Origin: Actinokineospora auranticolor
Lineage (GTDB): Bacteria > Actinomycetota > Actinomycetes > Mycobacteriales > Pseudonocardiaceae
Assembly: GCF_002934265.1 (NCBI RefSeq)
Contig: NZ_PTIX01000008.1
Location: 248,001-312,000 of the forward strand
Length of the DNA stretch: 64,000 nt
Direction: 5' to 3'
The number at the start of each line of letters is the position of its first letter. The stretch's first letter is position 1. The notes beneath the pieces are model-generated. The model made no database searches. It worked only from the letters and a program-made list of their open reading frames with translations, and had not been told where the DNA came from. The position numbers were made by a program, and so were the translations under genes. Below are positions 9,777-39,269 of the stretch, one piece after another.

Positions 9777-10957
9777 CAGCGGCCGCGCCGCGCGGTGACA
9801 CCCGGTTCGACATCACCGAGTGCGACCCGCGCGAGACCCCCGCGCAGTGGGACGCCATGGTGCCCGACACCGGTATCGGCTTCTACTCGTCCCGGTCCTG
9901 GAACCTCGCCATGCGCGGGCAGAACGGGGCGCGGGAGAGCGCGGTGGTGGTCCGCGCCTGCGGCGAGCTGCGCGCGGTCGTGCCCGTGTACCGCTACACC
10001 AGCGGCCCGGCCAACGCGCACCTGCACCCGGGGGCGCTGTTCGGCGGCGTGGGCGTGGACGACCCCGCCGCCCGCCGGTGGGAGCCGGTCACCGTCGTCG
10101 GCAGCGCCTCCGGCTACGGCACCGCCCCGGCGGGCACCGGGGACCTCGCGGGCTGGGCCGCCGCGGTGGCGCGGGTCGCCGACGCGGCGCGCGGGACGGT
10201 CGTCGTGCCGCACCTCACCGAGGCGGACGTGGCCAGGGTGCGCCACCACCTGCCGGACCTGCCGGTGCTGCTGACCGCGGTGCGCGTGCACGTGCCGCTG
10301 CCGCGCGCCACCGAGGCGGAGTACGAGGCGCTGCTGCGCCCCCGCACCAGGGAACTGGTCCGCCGGGAACGGCGGCTGCTGGCCCGGGGTGGGCGGGTGG
10401 TGCGGGTCGAGCCCATCACCGAGGACAACGTCGTCGAACTCGCCCGCCTGCAGACCAACACCCAGCGCAGGCACGGCAGCTACGGCGACGTCGCGCTGTT
10501 CGTCGACCGGTACCGGCGGATCCGCTCGGTGTTCGGCGACGCGCTGCTCGCCTTCGTGTGCAGGCACGAGGACCAGGCCGTGGGGTTCATGTCCTGCGTG
10601 GCGCGCGGTACCGCGCTCATCGGCCGCTCCGTCGGGCTCGACTACGCGCGGGTCGGCCGCCACGCCGAGTACTTCAACCTGATGGTCCACGAACCCGTGC
10701 GGTACGGCCTGCGGCACGGCGCGCGCCACCTCGACCTCGGCGTGGCCGGGTACGAGCAGAAGCTGCGGCGCGGCGGTGTGCCGGTTCCCGTGTGGTCGGT
10801 GCTGCTCCGCCCGCCGCCGGGGTGGTCCGCGGCGAGGGAGGTCGCGCACAACCGGGCCACCGCGCGGTCGCTGCTCGGTGAACTCGGCGAGCAGTGCCCA
10901 CCGGAGGTCGCCGCGGACCTGGCCCGGGTCGTCGATCGGGGGACGGTCGGTCGATGA
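9773..10957 (+). CDS. FemAB-like / GNAT-fold aminoacyl or acyl transferase 2
   Basis: 394 residues, same superfamily as the preceding gene but diverged. IGFYSSRSWNLAM near residue 35 is the equivalent of the substrate-entry helix. GFMSCVARGTALIGRSVGLD and the terminal HLDLGVAGYEQKLRRG form the second GNAT half. The GTG start overlaps the previous stop (GTGA) and its own stop overlaps the transporter start (ATGA), so production is stoichiometric with transferase 1. It probably carries out the second aminoacylation of the phosphonate product. Confidence 0.8.
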   Translation: MTAAAPRGDTRFDITECDPRETPAQWDAMVPDTGIGFYSSRSWNLAMRGQNGARESAVVVRACGELRAVVPVYRYTSGPANAHLHPGALFGGVGVDDPAARRWEPVTVVGSASGYGTAPAGTGDLAGWAAAVARVADAARGTVVVPHLTEADVARVRHHLPDLPVLLTAVRVHVPLPRATEAEYEALLRPRTRELVRRERRLLARGGRVVRVEPITEDNVVELARLQTNTQRRHGSYGDVALFVDRYRRIRSVFGDALLAFVCRHEDQAVGFMSCVARGTALIGRSVGLDYARVGRHAEYFNLMVHEPVRYGLRHGARHLDLGVAGYEQKLRRGGVPVPVWSVLLRPPPGWSAAREVAHNRATARSLLGELGEQCPPEVAADLARVVDRGTVGR

Positions 10958-25227: not shown

Positions 25228-26211
25228 TTAGCGAACGCGAACGGTTTGCCCGGTGTCGGGCACCAGTTCACCGATGACCACGGCGCCGGGGATCTCGCCC
25301 GCGATGAGCAGGCCGCCGGAGGTCTGCGCGTCGGCCAGGAGCAGTGCCTCGTCGGGGCTGATCGCGTCGAGGTCGACCGACGTCCTTACCCAGTCGAGGT
25401 TCCGCCTCGCGCCGCCGCTGATGAAGCCGTCCCGCAGCGCCGCCCGCGCACCGTCCACATAGGGCACCGCGGCCGCGTCGACCACGGCGGTCACGCCGCT
25501 GGCGCGGGCCAGCTTGTGCAGGTGGCCCAACAGCCCGAAACCGGTGACGTCGGTCGCGCACGTGACCCCGGCGGCGACGGCGGCCCGCGCGGCGTCGCGG
25601 TTCAGCGTCGTCATCACCGCGACGGCCTCCGGGAACACCTCGCCCGTCGCCTTGTGCCGGTTGTTCAGCACGCCCAGCCCCAACGGTTTCGTCAGCGACA
25701 GCGGCACCCCGGCGGTGCCCCCGCTGTTGCGCATGATCCGCGCGGGATCGATCGTGCCGGTGACCGCGAGCCCGTACTTGGGTTCCGGGTCGTCCACGCT
25801 GTGCCCGCCCGCCAGGTGGCAGCCCGCCTCGGCGGTGACGTCGAGACCGCCGCGCAACACTTCCTCGACCAGTTCCAACGGCAGCACGTCACGCGGCCAG
25901 CCGAGCAGGTTCAGCGCCACCACGGGTGTGCCGCCCATGGCGTAGACGTCCGAGAGCGCGTTGGCGGCGGCGATGCGGCCCCAGTCGTACGGGTCGTCGA
26001 CGACCGGGGTGAAGAAGTCCGTTGTGGCCACCAGGGCGAGGTCCGGCGCGATGCGCACCACCGCCGCGTCGTCGCCGGTGTCGAGTCCGACGAGCAGGTC
26101 GGCGTCGCGCGGGGTCCGGGCGAGGCCGGACACGACCCGCTCCAACTCGCCGGGCGGGAGTTTGCAGGCGCAGCCGCCGCCGTGGGCGTACTGGGTCAGC
26201 CGCTGGGTCAC
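25228..26211 (-). CDS. selD: Selenide, water dikinase
   Basis: 327-residue enzyme making selenophosphate from selenide and ATP, the selenium donor for SelA. HGGGCACKL (10-18) has the redox-active Cys and the essential Lys; the Sec/Cys position is an ordinary cysteine codon. TGDDAAVV, DVYAMGGTPVVALN and GFGLLGHLHKL are the ATP-binding AIRS-fold motifs. It is transcribed divergently from the tRNA-Sec gene, which begins 35 bp away. Together with selC, selA and selB it completes the Sec pathway, indicating that selenoproteins are made. Confidence 0.95.
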   Translation of the reverse strand: MTQRLTQYAHGGGCACKLPPGELERVVSGLARTPRDADLLVGLDTGDDAAVVRIAPDLALVATTDFFTPVVDDPYDWGRIAAANALSDVYAMGGTPVVALNLLGWPRDVLPLELVEEVLRGGLDVTAEAGCHLAGGHSVDDPEPKYGLAVTGTIDPARIMRNSGGTAGVPLSLTKPLGLGVLNNRHKATGEVFPEAVAVMTTLNRDAARAAVAAGVTCATDVTGFGLLGHLHKLARASGVTAVVDAAAVPYVDGARAALRDGFISGGARRNLDWVRTSVDLDAISPDEALLLADAQTSGGLLIAGEIPGAVVIGELVPDTGQTVRVR

Positions 26212-26245: not shown

Positions 26246-26340
26246 GGAGGCGTACCCGGCCTGGTGGCCGGCGCGGTCTTCAACACCGTTGAGCGGCGGG
26301 TCCCGCCGCTGGCGGGTTCGATTCCCGTCCGCCTCCGCCA
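26246..26340 (+). tRNA. selC: tRNA-Sec (anticodon TCA)
   Basis: 95-nt sequence folding as a bacterial selenocysteine tRNA. The acceptor pairs GGAGGCG (26246-26252) with CGCCTCC (26330-26336), with a mismatch at the eighth pair. The D-stem is 6 bp (CCGGCC/GGCCGG), and the anticodon loop CTTCAAC carries TCA at 26280-26282. The variable arm is long (GCGGCGG/CCGCCGC), followed by a T-arm, discriminator G and encoded CCA. The long D-stem, long variable arm and UGA-reading anticodon are diagnostic. It lies 15 bp before selA and is probably co-transcribed with it. Confidence 0.95.
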
Positions 26341-26355: not shown

Positions 26356-27654
26356 GTGACCGACCCCAGGCGCACCATCCCCCGCACGGACACCGTCCTC
26401 GCCGACCCGCGTCTGGTCGACCCGCTGCGCAGGCTCGGCCGCGCCACGGTGAAGGCCGCGGTCGCCGCCGCGCAGCAGCGGATCCGCGAGGCGGCCGACC
26501 CGGCCTGGTGGAGCGACCCCGACCTCGTGGTGCAGCTGGCCTTGGCGCACCTGCCGCGCGGACCGGTCGAGGTGCTCAACGCGACCGGTGTCGTGGTCCA
26601 CACCAACCTGGGTCGGGCTCCGCTGTCGAGCGCCGCGATCCTCGCCGTGGGCCAGGCGGCCGGGTACACCGACGTCGAGTTCGACCTCGCGAGCGGCAAA
26701 CGGCACCCCCGCGGGGAATCGGCGCTGCACGCGCTGCGCCGGGCCGTGCCGGACGCGGGCGACGTCCACGTGGTCAACAACAACGCCGCCGCGCTGCTGC
26801 TGTGCGCGCTGGTGCTGGCCCAGGGCCGGGAGATCGTCATCAGCCGGGGCGAGCTCGTCGAGATCGGCGACGGGTTCCGCATCCCCGACCTGCTGGAGTC
26901 CACGGGCGCGCGGCTGCGCGAGGTCGGCACGACCAATCGGACCACCGCGCGGGACTTCGCCGACGCGGTGGGCGACCGGACCGGGTTCATCCTGCGCGTG
27001 CACCCCTCCAACTACCGCGTCACCGGCTTCACCTCCGCCCCCGACCTCGCGGAGCTGACCGACCTGGGCGTGCCGCTGGTGGTCGACATCGGCTCGGGCC
27101 TGCTCACCCCGCACCCGCTGCTCCCCGACGAACCGGACGCCGCCTCCGCGCTGCGGGCGGGCGCCGCGCTGGTCACCGCCAGCGCCGACAAGCTCCTCGG
27201 CGGGCCGCAGGCCGGGCTGCTGCTCGGGGACGCCGGTCTGGTCACCCGGCTGCGCAGGCACCCGTCGGCGCGGGCGCTGCGGGTGGACAAGCTGACCCTG
27301 GCCGCGCTGGAGGCGACCCTGCTGGACCCGCGCACACCCGTCGCGGAGGCCGTGGCGGCTCGCGAACCGGACCTGCGGGCCAGAGCCGAAGAGATGTCAC
27401 GACAGCTGGTGGCGCGCGGGGTCGACGCGCGGGCCGTGCCGTCGGTGTCGGTCATCGGCGGCGGGGGAGCGCCCGGGGTGGAGTTCCCCAGCGCGGCGGT
27501 GAGCCTGCCGCACCGCTACGCCGAGGCGCTGCGCCTGGACCGGACACCGGTCGTCGGGCGGGTCGAGGGCGGGCGGTGCCTGCTCGACCTGCGCGCGGTG
27601 CCCGCGCACCCGGGCGACGAGGCGCTGGTGGAGGCCGTGCTCCGGTGCACGTGA
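26356..27654 (+). CDS. selA: L-seryl-tRNA(Sec) selenium transferase
   Basis: 432-residue PLP enzyme converting Ser-tRNA(Sec) to Sec-tRNA(Sec) with selenophosphate. NATGVVVHTNLGRAPLS (75-91) is the conserved SelA opening. VVDIGSGLL holds the PLP aspartate and SADKLLGGPQAG the Schiff-base lysine K279. The N-terminal tRNA-binding helices are present, so the protein is full length. The GTG start has GAGAGG directly behind the tRNA-Sec CCA end. It overlaps selB by 10 bp. Confidence 0.97.
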   Translation: MTDPRRTIPRTDTVLADPRLVDPLRRLGRATVKAAVAAAQQRIREAADPAWWSDPDLVVQLALAHLPRGPVEVLNATGVVVHTNLGRAPLSSAAILAVGQAAGYTDVEFDLASGKRHPRGESALHALRRAVPDAGDVHVVNNNAAALLLCALVLAQGREIVISRGELVEIGDGFRIPDLLESTGARLREVGTTNRTTARDFADAVGDRTGFILRVHPSNYRVTGFTSAPDLAELTDLGVPLVVDIGSGLLTPHPLLPDEPDAASALRAGAALVTASADKLLGGPQAGLLLGDAGLVTRLRRHPSARALRVDKLTLAALEATLLDPRTPVAEAVAAREPDLRARAEEMSRQLVARGVDARAVPSVSVIGGGGAPGVEFPSAAVSLPHRYAEALRLDRTPVVGRVEGGRCLLDLRAVPAHPGDEALVEAVLRCT

Positions 27655-29225
27655 TCGCCACCGCGGGCCACGTCGACCACGGCAAGTCCACGCTGGTGCG
27701 GCGGCTGACCGGCGTGGAACCCGACCGCTGGGCCGAGGAGCGCCGCCGGGGCCTGACCATCGACCTGGGCTTCGCGTGGACCACGCTGCCGCGCGCGGGG
27801 GAGGTCGCGTTCGTCGACGTGCCGGGCCACGAGCGGTTCGTGTCGAACACGCTGGCGGGCGTGGGCCCCGCGCCCGCGGTGCTGTTCGTCGTCGCGGCCG
27901 ACGCGCCGTGGATGCCGCAGGCGGAGGAGCACCTGCTGGCGCTGGACGCCCTCGGCGTGCGGCACGGGCTGCTCGTGGTTACGAGGGCCGACCTCGCCGA
28001 CCCGGACGCGATCCGCCGCACGGCGCTGGACCGGATCGCGCGGACCTCGCTCGGCGCCGTGCCGTCGGTGGTGACGGGCGCGGGCAGCGGCCTGGACGAG
28101 GTGCGGGCCGCGGTGGACGCGCTCGCGGCGGGACTCCCGGTGCCCGCTGTGGACGGGGATATCCGGTTGTGGGTGGACCGGTCGTTCACCGTGGCGGGCG
28201 CGGGAACCGTGGTGACCGGCACCCTCCAGGCGGGGACGCTGCGGGTGGGCGACGAACTCGTGCTGCGCGACGACACCGTCCGGATCAAGGGCCTGCGCGC
28301 CCTCGGCGCACCTCGGGACGAGGTGGCGGCCGCGGCGCGGGTGGCGGTCAACCTGCGTGGTCTGGACCTCGCGGCCGTGCGCCGCGGCGACGCGCTGCAC
28401 ACCCGCGACGCCTGGTGGCCGACCCGGGTGGTCGACCTGGACGTGGCCGGACTGCCCCGCCAGGTCGTCGCGCACCTCGGCACGGCCGCCGTCCCGGCCC
28501 GCGTCCATCCACTCCGGACCGGTGTGAGCAGGCTCGTACTGGCCCGCCCGCTGCCGCTGCGCCTGGGTGACCGGGTGCTGGTCCGCGACCCGGGGAACCG
28601 TCGGATCGTCGGCGCGACCGCGGTCGACCTCGATCGCCTCGCCCGCCTGCCCTTCCACCGCACGGCCCAGCTGAAGGCGTTGGGCCGCGCGGGTGATCCG
28701 GTGGCGGCCGATTGGCACACCGACCCCGACACCTGGCGTGCGCTCGTCGACCGGGTCGGTGTCGAACTGGCCGGGTGGCGCGCGGACCACCCGCTGGACC
28801 CGCGTCCACCGCTGGAGACGTTGCGCCGCGCGCTGCGGCTGCCGGATGTCCGGCTCGTCGCGCCGCTGCTCGCCGCCGCCGGGAGACCCGAGGTCGAATT
28901 GCCCGAATCGGTGCGGAAAGCGCTCGATCTCGCAGCCGTCACACCGTTCCAACCGGTCACCGGGCTCGGTCGGGACGAGGTCGCGGCGGCCGTCCGGGCG
29001 GGCCGGTTGCTGCGATTGGCCGATGGCGTCGTGCTGTCGAGCGCGGCGGCGGGAGCGGCCGCCGTGGAGTTGGCGGGCTTGGCGCAGCCCTTCACCACGA
29101 GCCAGGCCCGACAGGCGCTCGGCACCAATCGACGGATCGCGTTGGCGCTGTTGGACTTCCTCGATGCCGCGGGCGTGACGACCCGGCTGTCGGACAACAC
29201 CCGGCGGCTCCGCGCGCGGACGTGA
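27645..29225 (+). CDS. selB: Selenocysteine-specific elongation factor
   Basis: 526-residue EF-Tu-like GTPase that carries Sec-tRNA to UGA codons marked by a SECIS hairpin. TAGHVDHGKST is the P-loop, DVPGHERFV the switch II motif and VVTRAD the base-specificity motif. Domains II/III follow (DRSFTVAGAGTVVTGTL), and the C-terminal 200 residues contain winged-helix segments that bind the mRNA hairpin. The C-terminal part is shorter than in E. coli SelB (614 residues), as in other actinobacteria. GTG 27645 is chosen for the VHVIATAGHV N-terminus; GTG 27651 is an alternative. Confidence 0.96.
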   Translation: MHVIATAGHVDHGKSTLVRRLTGVEPDRWAEERRRGLTIDLGFAWTTLPRAGEVAFVDVPGHERFVSNTLAGVGPAPAVLFVVAADAPWMPQAEEHLLALDALGVRHGLLVVTRADLADPDAIRRTALDRIARTSLGAVPSVVTGAGSGLDEVRAAVDALAAGLPVPAVDGDIRLWVDRSFTVAGAGTVVTGTLQAGTLRVGDELVLRDDTVRIKGLRALGAPRDEVAAAARVAVNLRGLDLAAVRRGDALHTRDAWWPTRVVDLDVAGLPRQVVAHLGTAAVPARVHPLRTGVSRLVLARPLPLRLGDRVLVRDPGNRRIVGATAVDLDRLARLPFHRTAQLKALGRAGDPVAADWHTDPDTWRALVDRVGVELAGWRADHPLDPRPPLETLRRALRLPDVRLVAPLLAAAGRPEVELPESVRKALDLAAVTPFQPVTGLGRDEVAAAVRAGRLLRLADGVVLSSAAAGAAAVELAGLAQPFTTSQARQALGTNRRIALALLDFLDAAGVTTRLSDNTRRLRART

Positions 29226-29328: not shown

Positions 29329-30036
29329 GTGAGCACGCCGTTGCGCCTGGACCTCGTCGCCCCCAGTGGTTCGCGCCTGTCCCTGGTGATGCCGGACGTG
29401 GGACCCGTGTCGAGCGTGGCCGCGTCCGTCCGGTTCGCGGGCGGTTCCTACGGCACGGGCTTCCAGATAGGGTCGCGCGGCTACCACGAGTTCGCCGCCA
29501 CCCACGTCGCGCCCGCCACCACGACCGACCGGTTCCTGGTGCACGGCCGGGAGGTCGTGGTCGCCGAAGCGCGCGACGGGCAGTCGTCGATGGCCACGCT
29601 GCTCGGCGACTACCACGAGCTGATGACCGTCTTCGCCGGGCCCGCGCCGCGCCGCGACCGGGTGTTCTCCCTGTTCAACTCGTTGCGCGTCACCGACGAC
29701 CCCGCGGGCATGCGGGTCGCGGCGCGGTCGATGACCCTGCTCGACGCCATGAGCGAGTCCGTGGTCGTGGCCGTCAAGGACTTCGGTTCGGTGGCCGTGC
29801 CCGGCCCGCGCCAGACCCGCGACCACGTCCCGAACCACGCGGGCGCGCCGACGCGCCACGGCGAGGTCTGGAAGGTGCAGCTGCCCGTTGGCCGATCCGG
29901 CAAGCCGGGCCAGGGGTTCCTGCTGGGGTGCGCGGCCGGTGTCGCCGAGGTCCAGTTCGCCGACTCGACCGCCCGCGCCGAGCGGGAGCGGCTCGACTGG
30001 CTCGACGGCATCGATGTGGCCTGGCGGAAGGCATGA
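29329..30036 (+). CDS. Hypothetical protein, first gene of the selenoprotein operon
   Basis: 235 residues, no signal peptide or membrane helix. Two similar beta-rich halves can be seen: LRLDLVAPSGSRLSLVMPDV...GSYGTGFQIGSRGYHEFA and, later, VVAVKDFGSVAVPGPRQTRD...GFLLGCAAGVAEVQFAD. The single cysteine is in LLGCAAG. No family is recognised. It is coupled to the thioredoxin-like gene by a 4-bp ATGA overlap, which places it in the same redox-type operon. Its role could be a cytoplasmic partner or maturation factor; that is only inferred from context. Confidence 0.72.
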   Translation: MSTPLRLDLVAPSGSRLSLVMPDVGPVSSVAASVRFAGGSYGTGFQIGSRGYHEFAATHVAPATTTDRFLVHGREVVVAEARDGQSSMATLLGDYHELMTVFAGPAPRRDRVFSLFNSLRVTDDPAGMRVAARSMTLLDAMSESVVVAVKDFGSVAVPGPRQTRDHVPNHAGAPTRHGEVWKVQLPVGRSGKPGQGFLLGCAAGVAEVQFADSTARAERERLDWLDGIDVAWRKA

Positions 30037-30503
30037 GCCCGATCACCGCCTTCCACGTGATCACGTGGGCGGCCATCGTCCTGCTGTTCCTCGGGCTCGG
30101 CGCGGTGCTGCGCGAGGTGCGCCTGCTGCGCGCCGCCGTCGCCCGCGATCCCGCCGGCTACACCGCGACCCGCCCGGACCTGGTGCTGGGGCCCAGGTTC
30201 GCGGGTCGGGTCGTGCTGGCCGCGGACTCGGGGTGCCCGCTGTGCGTCGCGGTCGCCCGCGAACTGCGCGACGGCGTGCTGCTGACCCACGAGTCGCCCG
30301 AGGCCTGGGACACGGCTTTGCAGGTCGTCCGCGACCGGGAGGCCTGGCGCGGTGTCGCGCACCTGTCGCCCCCGGTGCTGATGCTGGTCGACGGCACCGG
30401 CCGGGTGAGCCGGATGGCGCTGCCCGTCCGGGAGACCCAGGTTGCCGAAATCCTTGCGGAATGGGGGGTACGCGATGGCGTTGACGCTCGATCGGATTCC
30501 TGA
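30033..30503 (+). CDS. Membrane-anchored thioredoxin-like protein (MauD-like)
   Basis: 156 residues. Residues 5-27 are a single N-terminal membrane helix. The rest is a small thioredoxin-like domain placed outside the membrane, with a CxxC motif (C68, C71 in AADSGCPLC) at the expected strand-helix junction. LSPPVLMLVDG follows, where thioredoxins carry the cis-proline. This is the layout of MauD/TlpA-type thiol-disulfide proteins. It is flanked by a six-cysteine exported protein and a membrane protein with a predicted selenocysteine, a set reminiscent of methylamine-utilisation (mauD/mauE/mauA) clusters. Confidence 0.7.
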   Translation: MSPITAFHVITWAAIVLLFLGLGAVLREVRLLRAAVARDPAGYTATRPDLVLGPRFAGRVVLAADSGCPLCVAVARELRDGVLLTHESPEAWDTALQVVRDREAWRGVAHLSPPVLMLVDGTGRVSRMALPVRETQVAEILAEWGVRDGVDARSDS

Positions 30504-31017
30504 CCACGAGTCCGGGACCGGCCGGACCGGGGTGCTCAAGGACTTCAAGGGGCCGCGCAGGCGCCGGACCGTCCTCCGCGCGATCGCGCTGGGCGCGGCC
30601 ACCATCGGCTCGGCCACCCTCGCGCTGCCCCGCCGCGCGCGGGCCGAGACCGGGCCGAACGCGTTGCAGGGCTGGGACCGCACGGACTGCCGCGACGGCT
30701 ACCCCAGCGGCTACGACCAAGACCCCGACACCGGCGGCGAGTTCGTCAACGCCTACGCCGCGTGCGTCGGCGGTGCGTGGCGCAGCAGCGACTTCTGCGA
30801 GGCCGGGTGGCACAAGTACGGCACCGAACTCGTCGGTGACGTGCAGGTCGACCACATGCCGGTGTCGACGACCTGCGGCACCACGTCGATGAAGAACGCC
30901 TGGCGCTGGACCACCCCGGACGGCAAGGTCTACCGCTGCTCCGACGGGTTCAGCACCTACTGGGGCGCCGACCAGTCCGGCTTCACCTACCTCACGATCT
31001 GCCGGTCCCGCGTCTGA
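30475..31017 (+). CDS. Tat-exported cysteine-rich protein
   Basis: 180 residues. RRRRTVLRA (28-36) followed by a hydrophobic stretch and ALPRRARA is a twin-arginine signal. The mature part has six cysteines (72, 97, 108, 134, 155, 176), enough for three disulfides, and many Trp (68, 102, 112, 143, 145, 163). Tat export of a Cys- and Trp-rich domain recalls the methylamine dehydrogenase light chain by layout, but no sequence match is recognised. The ATG (GGGGGTA upstream) lies inside the previous gene (29-bp overlap). The stop overlaps the next ATG by one base. Confidence 0.72.
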   Translation: MALTLDRIPDHESGTGRTGVLKDFKGPRRRRTVLRAIALGAATIGSATLALPRRARAETGPNALQGWDRTDCRDGYPSGYDQDPDTGGEFVNAYAACVGGAWRSSDFCEAGWHKYGTELVGDVQVDHMPVSTTCGTTSMKNAWRWTTPDGKVYRCSDGFSTYWGADQSGFTYLTICRSRV

Positions 31018-31730
31018 TGCCCTGGCACCCGCTGGCGCTCGCGAGCGCGTTGCTCGCCGCCACCCTGGGTGGCGCGTCGTCGGCGGTGCTGGGCGTCGGG
31101 TTCCTGTCGTGGCTGTTCCTCGGCGCCACCGCCGGGTTCGCCACGTCCGGCTCCACTTGAAGCCGCAACTCGGCCTTCGTGCTGGCCTCGCCGGTCTGGC
31201 GAGGTGTTCCCGCGCTGGCGTTCCGCGCCGGTCTGCTCGTCGGCGGCGCGTTGAGCGCCGTGGTTCTGCTGGTGGTCGGGTCGCTGCTGCGCGCGCCGGT
31301 CCCGCAGCCGGTCAGGTGGGTGCTGATCGGGGTCGCGCTGCTCGCGGTGGTGCTGCGGGACGTGCGCGTGCTGCGGTTCACGCTGCCCGAGAACCGGCGG
31401 CTGGTACCGGAGAGCGTGTTCCGGCTCGGCCGCCTGCTCGGTCCGCTCCAGTTCGGGATCGAGATGGGCACCGGCGCGCGGACCTACCTGCCCAGCGGCC
31501 TGCCGTACGTGGCCGGGCTGGCGGTTCTGCTGACCGCGCCGCTGTCGGGCGCGCTGTGGGTCGGTGTGGGCTTCGGGCTGGGCCGCGCGTTGATGACGAC
31601 GGCGAACCTGAACTACCCGGGTGACTGGGACGAGCAGTGGACCCGCTACGCCAACCGGTTGGCCGCCCTGCTGGGGACCGGGTTCGTGGTGGCGTTGCTG
31701 GGAGCCGCCTGGGTGACAGCTCCCAGCTAG
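31017..31730 (+). CDS. Predicted selenoprotein: polytopic membrane protein with in-frame UGA (Sec48)
   Basis: Read through the TGA at 31158-31160, this is one 237-residue protein in one frame. The upstream part (47 residues, two hydrophobic helices, ending FATSGST) continues without shift into SRNSAFVLASPVW and about three to four more helices. A perfect 7-bp hairpin with GGTCT loop follows the TGA, and selC/A/B/D lie upstream, so UGA should be read as selenocysteine. The chain has no cysteine, so Sec48 would be its only thiol-like residue. GPLQFGIEMGTGARTY and GFGLGRALMTT suggest an internally duplicated redox membrane protein of CcdA/MauE style. Otherwise it would be a split pseudogene. Confidence 0.8.
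31158..31204 (+). promoter_or_regulatory. UGA codon with bacterial SECIS-like hairpin
   Basis: TGA 31158-31160 is followed after 25 nt by a perfect stem CCTCGCC (31186-31192) / GGCGAGG (31198-31204) with loop GGTCT (31193-31197). The loop starts 32 nt after the TGA. The GGTC loop core is the same as in the E. coli fdhF SECIS recognised by SelB. The bulged U of the E. coli element is not seen. Confidence 0.78.
31698..31726. terminator. Hairpin at the end of the selenoprotein gene
   Basis: CTGGGAGC (31698-31705) pairs perfectly with GCTCCCAG (31719-31726). It overlaps the last codons and lies 10 bp from the stop of the convergent protease gene, so it can act on transcripts from both sides. Confidence 0.45.
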
Positions 31731-31735
31731 CCGTC

Positions 31736-34700
31736 CTACACCGTCTGGTACGCGCGGATCACCGTCTGGGTCACGGAGTTGCCGTCCGCGTCCTTCGCGG
31801 TGATGCGCAGCGACACGAACCCGGGGGTGTTCGGGTTGCGCAGGAGCGCCGCGCCGACGCCGTCTCCACTGTGGATGGTGAGCGCGGGTTGCCAGGTCTT
31901 GCCGTCGTCACCGGAGAACTCGGTGCGCAGACCCGTCAGCTTCGACACCGGGGAACCGGGCTGGTGCTGCGCGTCGAGCCGGAACCCGTACAGGCGGCCC
32001 GCCGGTGCGCGCCCCTGGTCGTCGACCTCCGCGCTGACCCGCACCACCAGCAGCGGTGCGGGCGTGGGCGTGGCGGCACCCGCCTCGTGGAAGGTCCACG
32101 TGTAGTCGGCTGCGGTACCGATCACCGACCACGGCACGGACCGCTTGGCGGTGGTGTGCAGGGTGTAGGTGCCGGGTGAGTCCGGGATCGGGAACGCGCC
32201 GAAGCCGGGCAGGTCGCTGGTGCCGAGCACGGTTCCGTCGCGGCTGAGTTCGGTGGTGCCGGTGACCGCGGCGGCCGGGATGGTGAACTGGTCCGGGTCG
32301 CCGCTGGAGAGCGGGGCGAGGGCGACCGAGAGCGCGCCGTCGCCGCGCACCACGCCGAACCCGAGGTCGGCGGCGCCGAACGCCGGGCCGAGCGGCGCCC
32401 GGTGCCAGTGCGAGGTGTAGCGGCCCGGGGTGTACACCCGGTAGGACACCGTGTTCTCGGCGTCGGAGACGTCCGGCGGGAACAGCACACCCACGTGCAG
32501 CCACCGGACCGACGGCGACGCGGTGAAGTACTCCACGCGCGTGCCGGGCAGCGCGACCGGGTGGGGGTCGTAGATGGCGGAGTTCGCGCTGGGCGCGTCG
32601 ATGTTGGCGTAGTCGGCGCGTTGGCCCTGGGTCGCCGTCCCCTGGAGGTAGTAGCGGGCGTCGACGCGGGCGAGGTCGCGCTTGCGCACGGTGAACTTGC
32701 CGTCGGGGATGGCTCCGTTGACCAGGAACGCGAGGTTGTAGATGGCCTCGTCGGTCGTGACGGTCGTGCGGTACGTCGTGAGGTAGGTGTGGTCGGTGAC
32801 CTTCTTCGTCGGCACGGTGTAGAGCCGTTGCCCGGCCCTGGAGTACCAGCTGAGGGCGCTGGTGCGGTCCGGGGTGCCGGAGACCAGCGTGAGTTCACCG
32901 GTGACGAAGGTCGGCTGGGCGCCGTCGACCGTGGTGGAGACGGGTTGGCCCTTGGTGGCGTCGAGGGAGACCGAGGTGTTGCGGTCGACCACGACACCGC
33001 TCTGCGACAGCAGGGTGACGTCGTTCTGGTCCGAGAGCTCCAGGGCGTTGACGTCGTAGCGGCCCTTGGGCAGGCGGGCGATGCCGACGCCGTTGGTGAG
33101 CCGGACCGGCAGCGCGGCCCCGGTGTCGACGTTCACCGCCTTGACCACAGTGGACGCGCTCGTGCCGGTCCGGCCGCGCAGCCGGACCTCCAAGGCGTAG
33201 TTCTCGGTGTCGAGCACCGCGGTCACGGCGGTCTGGACCACGACGCCGTCGGCGGTCGCGGTGATCCGGCCGCCGCGCCTGCCCGACAGGCCCGCCGTGT
33301 TGGCCTCCACCGTGACCTGCGCGGTGCCGTGCGCGGGCACGACGACCTGGCGCGCGGAGGTGGTGAAGACCGGCGAGTCCGAGGCGAGGTTCAGCGTCAC
33401 CGGGCGGTCGCCGTCGTTGCGGTAGGTCAGGGGTTTGCCGAGGCGCGTGTTGTGCGGCCACGGCAGGAACCCGAACGCCAGCCCGTTGTCCAGCGCGGTC
33501 ACGTCCTGGGCGACGGCGCGGGCCGCGTCGACCCGACCCGCGCCCTGCTCGAACACGTCCGCCGTGGGCTTCGCGGTGCCGACGATGGTGGCCTTGGCCA
33601 GGTCCGGCGCCAGGCCGGGGCGGCGCTGGGCGAGCAGGGCGGCCGTGCCGGAGACGTGCGGTGCGGCCATCGACGTGCCGGACAGCGCCGCGTAGTGGTC
33701 GTCGACCGGCGCCTTGTCGCCCGCCGGGGTGCCCGTGACGCGCGCGGAGACGATGTCGCTGCCGGGCGCGGCGACGTCCGGTTTCACCGCGTAGTCCCGG
33801 AGCCGGGGCTGGCGCGGCGAGAACGGGCTGGTGGTGTCCTGTTTGGTCACGCTGCCCACGGCCAGCGCCCGGTCCGCGGCGGCGGGGGAGGTCACGGACG
33901 CCAGCGGGTCCGGGAGGTCGAGCGCCCGGTCGTTGCCCGCGGCGACGACGAACAGGGTGCCGTAGCGCGCGGAGAGGTCGTTGAGGGCGCGCGACACCGG
34001 GTCGGTGCCGTCGCTGTACCCGCTGCCGAGGCTCATGTTGACGATCCGGGCCTTGGGCGCGATCCACTCCATACCGGCGATGACCGCCGACTCGGGGCAG
34101 CCCTGCTCGGCGCACACCTTGCCGCTGAACAGTTTCGCGTCCGGCGCGACACCCTTGTACTTGCCCTGGGACGCGGCGCCCGTGCCGGCGATGATGCCCG
34201 CCACGTGCGTGCCGTGGCCGAGCTGGTCCGCCAACCCGGTTCCGGTGAAGTCGGCCTGCTCGACGACCTTGCCCGCCAGGTCCGGGTGGGCGCCGTCGAC
34301 ACCGCTGTCGAGGATGCCGACGGTGACGCCCGCGCCGGTGAACCCGGCCCGCCACGCGGTCGGCGCGCCGATCTGCGGGACGCTCACGTCGAGGGTCGGG
34401 CGGGCGGTGCCGTCCAGCCACACGGACGCCCGGGACGCGGTGAACCAGCGCCAGAAGCCGGTTTCCGGCCGCAGCGCGGCACCGTCGACGCTGGGCAGCG
34501 CCCGGACCGCGGTGGCGGGAACCGGTGCGCGCTCGGTGTTGTCGGTGACGATCAGCGGGGGCGGGGAGTCGTGGGGCAACCGGCGTAGATCGAACAGCCG
34601 GGGGTCCAACCGGCCCGCGTCGATCAGCGGCTGCGCGTCGGCCGGGATGAGCAGGTCGCCGTCCCGCAGGAACCCCATGTGTTCCCGTCCCACGACGGGT

Positions 34701-34900
34701 TCGACCTCCACCGCCGTCCGCCCACCCGGGCCGGTCACCAGCCGCACGCGGTCACCGGTGACCAGCGTGACCACCCCGGCGACCGCCTTCGTCCCGTTGG
34801 TCGCCGGGGTTGCGGCGTTCGCCGTAGCCGCGCCCACCGGGCACACTCCCGCTATGGACACCACGGCCACCGCCGCCGTGATCCGCCTTCGCCAAGCCAT
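31736..34900 (-). CDS. Secreted subtilisin-family (S8) serine protease, large
   Basis: 1,054-residue exported protease. There is a signal peptide (1-29), then a propeptide-like region (40-170). The catalytic domain has D198 in ILDSGVD, H229 in GHGTHVAG, N323 in VVAAGND and S410 in LSGTSMAAPHVSG. After residue 450 come several beta-sandwich domains (DGDRPVTLNLASDSPVF and later repeats). These resemble the C-terminal half of other large actinomycete subtilases. No sorting signal or extra membrane helix is present, so it should be released. ATG with GGGAG upstream is the start. Confidence 0.95.
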   Translation of the reverse strand: MAWRRRITAAVAVVSIAGVCPVGAATANAATPATNGTKAVAGVVTLVTGDRVRLVTGPGGRTAVEVEPVVGREHMGFLRDGDLLIPADAQPLIDAGRLDPRLFDLRRLPHDSPPPLIVTDNTERAPVPATAVRALPSVDGAALRPETGFWRWFTASRASVWLDGTARPTLDVSVPQIGAPTAWRAGFTGAGVTVGILDSGVDGAHPDLAGKVVEQADFTGTGLADQLGHGTHVAGIIAGTGAASQGKYKGVAPDAKLFSGKVCAEQGCPESAVIAGMEWIAPKARIVNMSLGSGYSDGTDPVSRALNDLSARYGTLFVVAAGNDRALDLPDPLASVTSPAAADRALAVGSVTKQDTTSPFSPRQPRLRDYAVKPDVAAPGSDIVSARVTGTPAGDKAPVDDHYAALSGTSMAAPHVSGTAALLAQRRPGLAPDLAKATIVGTAKPTADVFEQGAGRVDAARAVAQDVTALDNGLAFGFLPWPHNTRLGKPLTYRNDGDRPVTLNLASDSPVFTTSARQVVVPAHGTAQVTVEANTAGLSGRRGGRITATADGVVVQTAVTAVLDTENYALEVRLRGRTGTSASTVVKAVNVDTGAALPVRLTNGVGIARLPKGRYDVNALELSDQNDVTLLSQSGVVVDRNTSVSLDATKGQPVSTTVDGAQPTFVTGELTLVSGTPDRTSALSWYSRAGQRLYTVPTKKVTDHTYLTTYRTTVTTDEAIYNLAFLVNGAIPDGKFTVRKRDLARVDARYYLQGTATQGQRADYANIDAPSANSAIYDPHPVALPGTRVEYFTASPSVRWLHVGVLFPPDVSDAENTVSYRVYTPGRYTSHWHRAPLGPAFGAADLGFGVVRGDGALSVALAPLSSGDPDQFTIPAAAVTGTTELSRDGTVLGTSDLPGFGAFPIPDSPGTYTLHTTAKRSVPWSVIGTAADYTWTFHEAGAATPTPAPLLVVRVSAEVDDQGRAPAGRLYGFRLDAQHQPGSPVSKLTGLRTEFSGDDGKTWQPALTIHSGDGVGAALLRNPNTPGFVSLRITAKDADGNSVTQTVIRAYQTV

Positions 34901-37210: not shown

Positions 37211-37912
37211 GTGCCGCACACCCCGGACAGCCGCGCGCTGTCCCGCGAGGAGTTCCTGGAGAGGCTGCGGGCGCTGTCCGCGCGCTACTGGAGCTCGCAC
37301 CCGTTCCACCAGCGCATGCACGCCGGTGACCTGTCCCGCGCCGAGCTGCGCGCCTGGGCGGCCAACCGCTGGTGCTACCAGGACGCGCTGCCCCGCAAGG
37401 ACGCCGCGATCATCGCCAACTGCCCGGTGCCCGAGGTGCGCAGGCTGTGGCTGGAACGGGTCGTCTACCACGACGGCGCCGTCTCCGGGGAAGGCGGACG
37501 GGAGGACTGGCTGCGGCTGTGCGCCGCGCTCGGCCTGTCCCGCGCGGAGGTCGTGGACGAGCGGCACGTCGTGCCCGGCGTCCGGTTCGCCGTGGACGCC
37601 TACGTGACCTTCGCCAGGACGCGCCCGTGGGAGATCGGGGTGGCCTCGGGTCTGACGGAGATGTTCGCGGGCCACCTGATGCGCCGCCGGGTCACCGACG
37701 TGCTGGCGCACTACCCGTGGATCGACCGCGCGGCCCTGGCCTACTTCACCACCCGCGTCGAGGCCGTGCGCGACGAGGGCAAGGTGGCCGTCGACATCGT
37801 GCTCACCCACTGCCGCACCCGCGAGCAGCAGGACGAGGCCATCGCGGCGCTGTCGTTCAAGTGCGACGTGCTCTGGTCGATGCTCGACGCGATCTCGGCA
37901 TGCCCGCGGTGA
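37211..37912 (+). CDS. pqqC: Pyrroloquinoline-quinone synthase PqqC
   Basis: 233-residue cofactorless oxidase performing the final ring closure and eight-electron oxidation to PQQ. The all-helical haem-oxygenase-like fold shows the family motifs YWSSHPFHQRMHAG, ANRWCYQDALPRKDAAI and VVYHDG. The active-site segment PWEIGVASGLTEMFAGHLM and the C-terminal LSFKCDVLWSMLDA also match. Start GTG follows GGAGGGGCC. The stop lies 10 nt inside pqqD. Confidence 0.95.
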   Translation: MPHTPDSRALSREEFLERLRALSARYWSSHPFHQRMHAGDLSRAELRAWAANRWCYQDALPRKDAAIIANCPVPEVRRLWLERVVYHDGAVSGEGGREDWLRLCAALGLSRAEVVDERHVVPGVRFAVDAYVTFARTRPWEIGVASGLTEMFAGHLMRRRVTDVLAHYPWIDRAALAYFTTRVEAVRDEGKVAVDIVLTHCRTREQQDEAIAALSFKCDVLWSMLDAISACPR

Positions 37913-38172
37913 CCGCGGTACCGAGGCTGCGCCGCGGGGTGCGGCTCGGCTACGACCCCGTCCGGCAGTCGCCCGTCGTGCTGTTCCCGGAAGGCGTGCT
38001 GCTGCTCAACACCACCGCCGAGGCCGTGCTGAAGCTCTGCGACGGGCTGTCGTCGCTCGACGAGATCGTCACCGGGCTGCGCGAGCAGTTCACCGGGGTG
38101 CGGGAGGACCAGGTCGGCGCGGTGCTGGAGTTCCTCGCCGACCGGCATGTCGTGTCGTGGGAGGACGTGTGA
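37900..38172 (+). CDS. pqqD: PqqA-binding peptide chaperone PqqD
   Basis: 90-residue RRE (RiPP recognition element) protein that presents PqqA to PqqE. PRLRRGVRLGYDPVRQSPVV, EGVLLLNTTAEAVLKLCDG and LEFLADRHVV match the winged-helix PqqD pattern. ATG 37900 overlaps the end of pqqC by 13 bp and the stop overlaps the pqqE start by 4 bp. Confidence 0.94.
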   Translation: MPAVTAVPRLRRGVRLGYDPVRQSPVVLFPEGVLLLNTTAEAVLKLCDGLSSLDEIVTGLREQFTGVREDQVGAVLEFLADRHVVSWEDV

Positions 38173-39269
38173 GCGCCGATCCGCCGCTGGGCCTGCTGGC
38201 CGAGCTGACCCACCGCTGCCCGCTGCACTGCCCGTACTGCTCCAACCCGGTCGAGTTGGTCCGCCGTGAGCGCGAGCTGACCACCGACCAGTGGCGGTCG
38301 GTGTTCACCCAGGCCCGCGCGCTGGGCGTCTTGCAGGTCCACCTGTCCGGCGGTGAACCGCTGGCCCGCCGCGACCTGCCGGAACTGGCCGCGCACGCCG
38401 CCGGATTGGGTTGCTACGTCAACCTGGTCACCAGCGGCCTCGGGCTCACCAAGGAGCGGATGACCGAGCTGGCCGCGCGCGGGATCGACCACGTGCAGCT
38501 GTCCGTGCAGGCCGCCGACCGGCAGCGCGCCGACGCCATCGCCGGGACCCGGGCCGCCGCGCACAAGCGCTCCGCCGCCGAGGCGGTGCGGGCCGTGGGG
38601 TTGCCGTTGACGGTCAACGTGGTGCTGCACCGGGGAAACCTCGACGAGGTCGGCGCGATCATCGAGCTGGCCGAGGAACTGGGGGCCGACCGGCTGGAGC
38701 TGGCCAACGCCCAGTACTACGGGTGGGCGCTGCGCAACCGGGACTCGCTGATGCCGACCCGCGGGCAACTCGACGCCGCCGACACCGTGGTGCGCGCGGC
38801 GAAGGCCCGGTTGGCGGGGCGCATGGAGGTCATCCACGTCATCGCCGACTACCACGACAGCTACCCGAAGCCGTGCATGCACGGCTGGGGCGCGCGGCAG
38901 TTGACGGTGGCGCCGGACGGGACCGTGCTGCCCTGCCCGTCCGCGCACGTCATCTCCACCCTGACCTTCGACAACGCGACCACCCGGCCGCTGGCGGAGA
39001 TCTGGTACGAGTCCGAGTCGTTCACCGCCTACCGCGGCGAGGACTGGATGCGCGACCCGTGCCGGACCTGCGACCGCCGCGGCGTCGACTTCGGCGGCTG
39101 CCGCTGCCAGGCGTTCCTGCTGACCGGCGCTGCGGAGAACACCGACCCGGTGTGCCCGAAGTCGCCGCACCACGGCGTGGTGACCGGTATCCTGGCCGAT
39201 TCCGCGTCGCGCCAGGTGCTGGTCGGCGTGGCGGAGCTGGGATTCCGGATGCGGTCGGAGGAACGGTGA
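38169..39269 (+). CDS. pqqE: Radical SAM PqqA peptide cyclase PqqE
   Basis: 366-residue radical SAM enzyme forming the Glu-Tyr C-C bond in PqqA. THRCPLHCPYCSNP contains the CxxxCxxC cluster motif and HLSGGEPL the SAM-binding GGE motif. The SPASM region has CMHGWGARQLTVAPDG, CPSAHV, CRTCDRRG...CRCQAF and DPVCPKSPHH, which ligate auxiliary clusters. The GTG start (38169) overlaps the pqqD stop. Confidence 0.96.
   Translation: MSADPPLGLLAELTHRCPLHCPYCSNPVELVRRERELTTDQWRSVFTQARALGVLQVHLSGGEPLARRDLPELAAHAAGLGCYVNLVTSGLGLTKERMTELAARGIDHVQLSVQAADRQRADAIAGTRAAAHKRSAAEAVRAVGLPLTVNVVLHRGNLDEVGAIIELAEELGADRLELANAQYYGWALRNRDSLMPTRGQLDAADTVVRAAKARLAGRMEVIHVIADYHDSYPKPCMHGWGARQLTVAPDGTVLPCPSAHVISTLTFDNATTRPLAEIWYESESFTAYRGEDWMRDPCRTCDRRGVDFGGCRCQAFLLTGAAENTDPVCPKSPHHGVVTGILADSASRQVLVGVAELGFRMRSEER

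Follow-up and report, generated by a model that had tools for sequence, protein, structure and literature searches.

A predicted single-selenocysteine membrane protein encoded beside the sel genes of Actinokineospora auranticolor, and its relatives in Actinomycetota

The window analyzed here, i.e., a 64,000-nucleotide stretch of contig NZ_PTIX01000008.1 of Actinokineospora auranticolor, contains a group of sel genes: selC, encoding tRNA-Sec (26246-26340), selA (26356-27654) and selB (27645-29225, starting at 27645 or 27651) on the forward strand, and selD, by eye a Cys form, on the reverse strand (25228-26211). Their proximity to the gene described below had been proposed in the initial annotation and was confirmed with ARAGORN and Rfam (selC) and with NCBIfam matches over cut-off (selA, selB and selD). 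Directly behind selA-selB follow, all on the forward strand, a conserved partner protein of ca. 235 residues that matches no named family (29329-30036), a membrane-anchored thioredoxin-like protein with a CPLC motif (30033-30503), a secreted protein with six cysteines and a twin-arginine signal (Tat-type, by eye; "sixC", 30442-31017), and the predicted selenoprotein gene (31017-31730). The true start of sixC probably lies inside its frame, the RR motif being found near position 30556. As the ATG of the selenoprotein gene (31017-31019) overlaps the TGA stop of the preceding gene (31015-31017), it closes a tight run. A large S8-type protease gene on the reverse strand (31736-34900) adjoins it, and is near it in closer relatives too, while a PQQ-synthesis cluster with pqqC and pqqE (NCBIfam over cut-off, 37211-39269) is situated ca. 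6 kb downstream.

The selenoprotein gene ends with a TAG (31728-31730) and consists of 47 codons ahead of an in-frame TGA (31158-31160) and 189 codons (plus stop) beyond it, i.e., one and the same frame split solely by this TGA, exactly as first described. Read through, it would encode a multi-helix membrane protein of 237 residues with selenocysteine at position 48 (Sec48) and, as also claimed at the outset, no cysteine elsewhere. Its AlphaFold model (mean pLDDT 93.9) places one helix at residues 29-41 and the next at 47-57, starting beside Sec48. No structure in the PDB was retrieved with this model by Foldseek at E <= 0.001, the protein itself had no matches at all in Pfam and NCBIfam, and those of its relatives were not convincing.

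The read-through protein was searched against 297 genomes from the GTDB family of A. auranticolor, and matched at 56 places in 50 of them. An in-frame TGA was present at 53 of these places and in 48 of the 50 genomes, the remaining three places were free of stops, and neither TAA nor TAG occurred inside any match. At all 53 places (a set not selected by motif) the TGA is surrounded by the motif (A/S)GxxxSGSxU(S/T)xNSA. In an alignment of 58 non-redundant genes, chosen by this motif, the TGA occupies a single column with conserved flanks on both sides, and there is neither a conserved Cys column nor a second conserved Cys/Sec. At the level of the class, the TGA gene was found in 14 of 394 genomes (17 places; without the window's own, 16 places in 13 genomes), three of these genes having a motif that ends in NSN or NSE in place of NSA, and four further GTDB families are represented. 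Carriers include Allokutzneria, Streptomyces coffeae, Nonomuraea basaltis, Sphaerisporangium rufum and Nonomuraea gerenzanensis. The last of these (locus L041) holds two copies, at positions 10055 and 18603, ca. 8.5 kb apart, for which the (incomplete) PLSDB table has no gene entry. Genomes G192 and G169 harbor degenerate paralogues (L064 and L066) with a degraded motif and neither TGA nor Cys at its place, and another match (G031:C47) is partial. By E-value, a tRNA-Sec over cut-off is absent from G192 and present in G169, so in the former Sec may have been lost at this site together with the Sec trait. A Cys at position 48 of homologues had been proposed as the decisive test. Among the relatives searched, the close family yielded no such form; Sec/Cys exchange is seen in a sister family (see below).

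Downstream of the TGA, a SECIS-like hairpin (31186-31204) is formed by the stem halves CCTCGCC (31186-31192) and GGCGAGG (31198-31204) around the loop GGTCT (31193-31197). The 7-bp stem and the spacing given at the outset (25 nt between the TGA and the stem, 32 nt between the TGA and the loop) proved exact on rechecking. From 79 extracted stretches we retained 68 distinct ones of equal length, in which the stem sits at a constant distance and nearly every loop falls at +32 to +33. Covariation was evaluated on 54 of the 68: 99.7% of cells are paired and four of the six pairs changed on both sides, compared with 37-50% pairing for slid partners, and the covariation score was reached by no shuffle. 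Beneath the loop, 58 of 59 genes use GTC as the Val codon, versus 24 of 80 other Val codons within the same 22 codons. When synonymous codons were shuffled gene by gene, p was <= 0.05 for only 19 of the 78 genes, the window's gene reaching 0.053. Hairpins of this sort are not unusual in DNA so rich in GC, and one in any single gene is weak evidence; the weight lies in the family taken together. Exceptions are L065, where a GG-loop hairpin is missing, L051 and L060, with a GTC loop, and L099, with a weak hairpin. On the hairpin scale the window's gene scored 21 versus 12 and 10 in two Cys homologues.

A tRNA-Sec over the Rfam cut-off was detected in 202 of the 297 same-family genomes, namely in 47 of the 48 with a TGA gene versus 155 of the 249 without one (Fisher p = 4.6e-8, genomes being treated without correction for kinship). 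The lone TGA-bearing genome without it (G138) is 87% complete. Within the window's genus (16 sampled genomes) the separation is total, with tRNA-Sec in eight of eight genomes having the gene versus none of eight lacking it. Moreover, of 48 non-redundant loci, the window included, 20 have selA or selD in the surrounding sequence that was fetched. No match to PF00384 (molybdopterin-family) carried a TGA in the eight tRNA-Sec-bearing genomes of the genus, while three genomes of another genus have one such match each; the usual selenium-dependent formate dehydrogenase therefore does not explain the sel genes here, and was rejected as their user in this genus. The initial annotation had suggested that the gene may be the reason for keeping the sel genes. 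The TGA-free PF00384 matches in these eight genomes fit this idea; as for other selenoprotein families, coverage was not exhaustive.

The class-level search additionally returned nine weaker matches in which no stop was apparent, since each began only beyond the site. Read upstream, six of them have a TGA in the motif TWSPUG and two a Cys in TWSPCG; the ninth is truncated by the end of its contig. A profile of this sister family, TWSP(U/C)G, matched at 60 places in 58 of 346 genomes of the phylum, 49 of the places with a TGA and 11 stop-free in the matched part (the window's own gene is among the latter, of which five were read beyond the match). Of 30 loci that were read, 26 have U and two have Cys in the motif; one of the other two is a stretch of N and the last an incomplete match. 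The exchange of Sec for Cys is documented by 36 rows (32 U and 4 C, one gene counted twice), and the Cys forms of a 50-row tree appear in two places, one of which (L133) is a long branch of unsure position. Profile comparisons between the window's family and the sister family with hhalign gave probabilities of 98.8% and 99.2%. In the unmasked alignment Sec48 falls on the sister U/C, and the register shifts by three when this residue is masked, so the correspondence is not independent of the residue itself; exact equivalence of the two positions appears likely. One of five sister proteins passed the DsbD_2 cut-off, and the same protein matched DsbD_TM below cut-off. Around 20 sister loci, MauE-like genes are present in 15 and thioredoxin-like ones in 17 (L157 is from the genome of a query); MauE is over the Pfam cut-off beside two sister genes, and one sister-locus thioredoxin has a weak match to MauD (1.1e-4, below cut-off). 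A third subfamily, F(S/D/G)PUGLSM, is represented among the loci fetched by three TGA forms (L154-L156) and a distant Cys form (L153), all four with a distinct Tat-type Cys-rich neighbor whose sequence starts with YHxCGHTxTTxSCPHP.

In the window's family, a pattern search located an N-terminally anchored CxxC protein upstream in 44 of 45 loci, usually together with a Tat-type Cys-rich protein. Across 19 members of the CxxC protein the invariant residues include both cysteines, a proline and a glycine, and its profile retrieved MPT53 (E = 3.2e-5) and DsbF (1.6e-4) among solved structures, single members reaching thioredoxin models below cut-off only. By BLASTP, the window's thioredoxin-like protein has no similarity to the sister one. 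The six-Cys protein was recovered by pattern in 41 distinct forms; 20 entries were missed by the pattern, and some of these have other Tat-type Cys-rich proteins instead. At L062 and L058 the Cys-rich Tat-type protein upstream of the TGA gene has an added tail, which in L062 matches PG_binding_1 peptidoglycan-binding repeats. The model of the six-Cys protein is of only fair quality (pLDDT 68.7); it matched no known fold in Foldseek at E <= 0.001, and the protein matched no known family. Profile searches of solved structures with A2, A3 and A5 yielded nothing significant (best E 0.6, no hit and 0.51, respectively).

We propose that the UGA at 31158-31160 is read as Sec using the products of the adjacent selA, selB, selC and selD together with the hairpin 32 nt downstream, and that Sec48 would lie within the membrane at a helix break, at the beginning of a short helix. 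From the one sister protein over the DsbD cut-off we infer that the protein probably belongs, as a distant member, to the membrane redox carriers of the DsbD/CcdA type. Either through the membrane or on its outer side, it probably exchanges electrons with the upstream anchored CPLC thioredoxin-like protein, which in turn could set the disulfides of the Tat-type six-Cys protein of the same operon. To this explanation taken as a whole, i.e., a Sec48 membrane selenoprotein acting as a redox carrier with the CPLC and six-Cys partners, we assign a probability of about 0.8, and its parts differ in strength. Judged by comparative sequence analysis, Sec insertion at this UGA is near certain: conservation demonstrates a predicted frame running across the codon, beneath a SECIS-like element and in genomes with tRNA-Sec save one, so that the conserved TGA, the covarying hairpin and the co-occurrence all support the selenoprotein reading of the initial annotation. 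The accompanying suggestion of a redox membrane protein is an inference that the conserved thioredoxin-like and Cys-rich partners strengthen. The weakest step of the mechanism is a single-Sec carrier without a resolving Cys, which would imply either that a partner supplies one or that the chemistry differs.

Could the TGA instead be a true stop? Such a gene would give a 47-residue peptide and, via re-initiation at the next possible start after the TGA (GTG at 31179), a separate protein of 183 residues, and both frames are indeed open under the standard code. However, N51 and S52, which lie between the TGA and this GTG, are invariant in the family alignments, and Ser52, three codons before the GTG, is encoded by TCN in 51 and by AGC in 11 of 62 family rows, which indicates that the amino acid beyond the TGA is under selection. 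Of the 56 places, 53 also have TGA as this codon, no match contains a TAA or TAG, Cys forms occur at the TGA site of the sister family, and the gene co-occurs with tRNA-Sec. Homologues starting after the TGA, a worry voiced at the outset, were not what we found, as they run across it in one alignment column. With the TGA kept and its flanking residues conserved in relatives, we reject re-initiation, and consider it very improbable. The other early concern, a sequencing error at 31158-31160 or, likewise, a recent pseudogene, is one that a single genome alone would be unable to exclude; it is refuted by the relatives that share the TGA (48 of the 50 matching genomes plus four further GTDB families), and its probability is negligible.

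The two other alternatives accept Sec and question what it does. Sec48 might not be a thiol-redox carrier at all, and could bind a metal or selenium/sulfur species or handle reactive oxygen, with the thioredoxin-like protein merely keeping it reduced. One Sec with no conserved partner Cys, unlike the two-Cys DsbD/CcdA cycle, would suit such a protein, and the co-conserved thioredoxin-like and secreted Cys-rich proteins fit it too. Nevertheless, one sister protein matches DsbD_2 (and DsbD_TM below cut-off) and this match, along with the MauE and thioredoxin-like neighbors of sister genes, points to thiol chemistry, so we regard a non-carrier Sec as unlikely. Less likely again is a Mau-like role in maturing a protein that carries a quinone cofactor, as methylamine dehydrogenase does, with the six-Cys Tat-type protein as a MauA-like subunit. 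In its favor are the two sister genes next to a MauE over the Pfam cut-off (MauE-like in 15 of 20 loci), the sister thioredoxin weakly resembling MauD (1.1e-4, below cut-off) and the PQQ genes 6 kb downstream in the window. Against it, MauA models were matched by none of 28 members of the six-Cys protein, leaving its identity as MauA without support, nor by three sister Cys-rich proteins, and no MauE match exists on the window's contig.

Extending the redox-carrier reading beyond the window, we suspect, at somewhat better than even odds, that these genes constitute one superfamily of transmembrane selenoproteins that extends across the phylum Actinomycetota and comprises three or more subfamilies (SGSxU, TWSPU and F(S/D/G)PUGLSM), most members with an anchored thioredoxin-like protein (and MauE in the second) and often with a Tat-type Cys-rich client. 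Its members would be single-selenol electron carriers without a resolving Cys and could be the main reason why many aerobic actinomycetes lacking selenium-dependent formate dehydrogenase keep their sel genes. Should this be so, annotation has probably split such genes into a truncated peptide and a protein with a late start, and in many aerobic actinomycetes the Sec trait would acquire a concrete user, along with a secreted client that can be tested.

The initial annotation named the gene a new candidate selenoprotein, of a type not known to be described in actinomycetes, and the sources consulted agree. A 2026 inventory (PMC13188914) covers 119 prokaryotic selenoprotein families and subfamilies, and neither the window's nor the sister family, by domain or by Sec motif, is present in its Table 1. 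No model in NCBIfam (June 2026) or Pfam recognizes the window's family, the sister family having a single match, to DsbD_2 (Pfam). All nine deep-Sep families, as given in the accessible part of PMC12013277, differ from the one described here, and a literature search, which left subscription journals and preprints mostly outside, found no paper on the window's family. Given these absences we consider it a new family of selenoproteins. Both selenoproteins as such and DsbD-like carriers have been described before, and it is their combination and the gene set that do not occur in the sources searched. The accessible text of PMC12013277 cautions that its finder may misidentify selenoproteins without Cys homologues, and the close family, having none as far as searched, falls in that blind spot. 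A 2016 survey (PMC5029168, in its accessible part) was unable to rule out that genomes using Sec but lacking any known selenoprotein contain new ones. The closest points of comparison are four systems that each share some features with the genes described here.

DsbD/CcdA carriers operate by a two-Cys cycle, with a conserved redox Cys pair in two membrane helices. The present proteins resemble them (PF13386, DsbD_2; PF02683, DsbD_TM) in being small multi-helix membrane proteins with a thioredoxin-like partner nearby and, in the sister family, in the SPC/SPU motif of the first half and the one protein of five over the DsbD_2 cut-off. The window's family is unlike them in having one Sec and no second conserved Cys; none of its 49 members matches the Pfam DsbD models, and no solved fold matches (PDB, E <= 0.001). 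TsoB (NF045694) is, by its name in NCBIfam and in the accessible part of PMC13188914, a rhodanese/DsbD fusion-like selenoprotein, and according to that inventory has two Sec (UxxxxU); its model was touched by two of the 49 members without significance (best E 0.019). The Mau accessory system is similar in the pairing of MauE with a thioredoxin-like protein (once weakly MauD-like) beside most of the 20 sister genes, and dissimilar in that no MauA match was obtained and the window's contig has no MauE. Finally, the secreted thiol oxidoreductases MPT53 and DsbF are the structures found by the profile of the upstream CxxC protein, from which they differ in that here an N-terminal helix, as predicted from sequence, tethers the thioredoxin-like domain, and its gene lies together with that of a selenoprotein.
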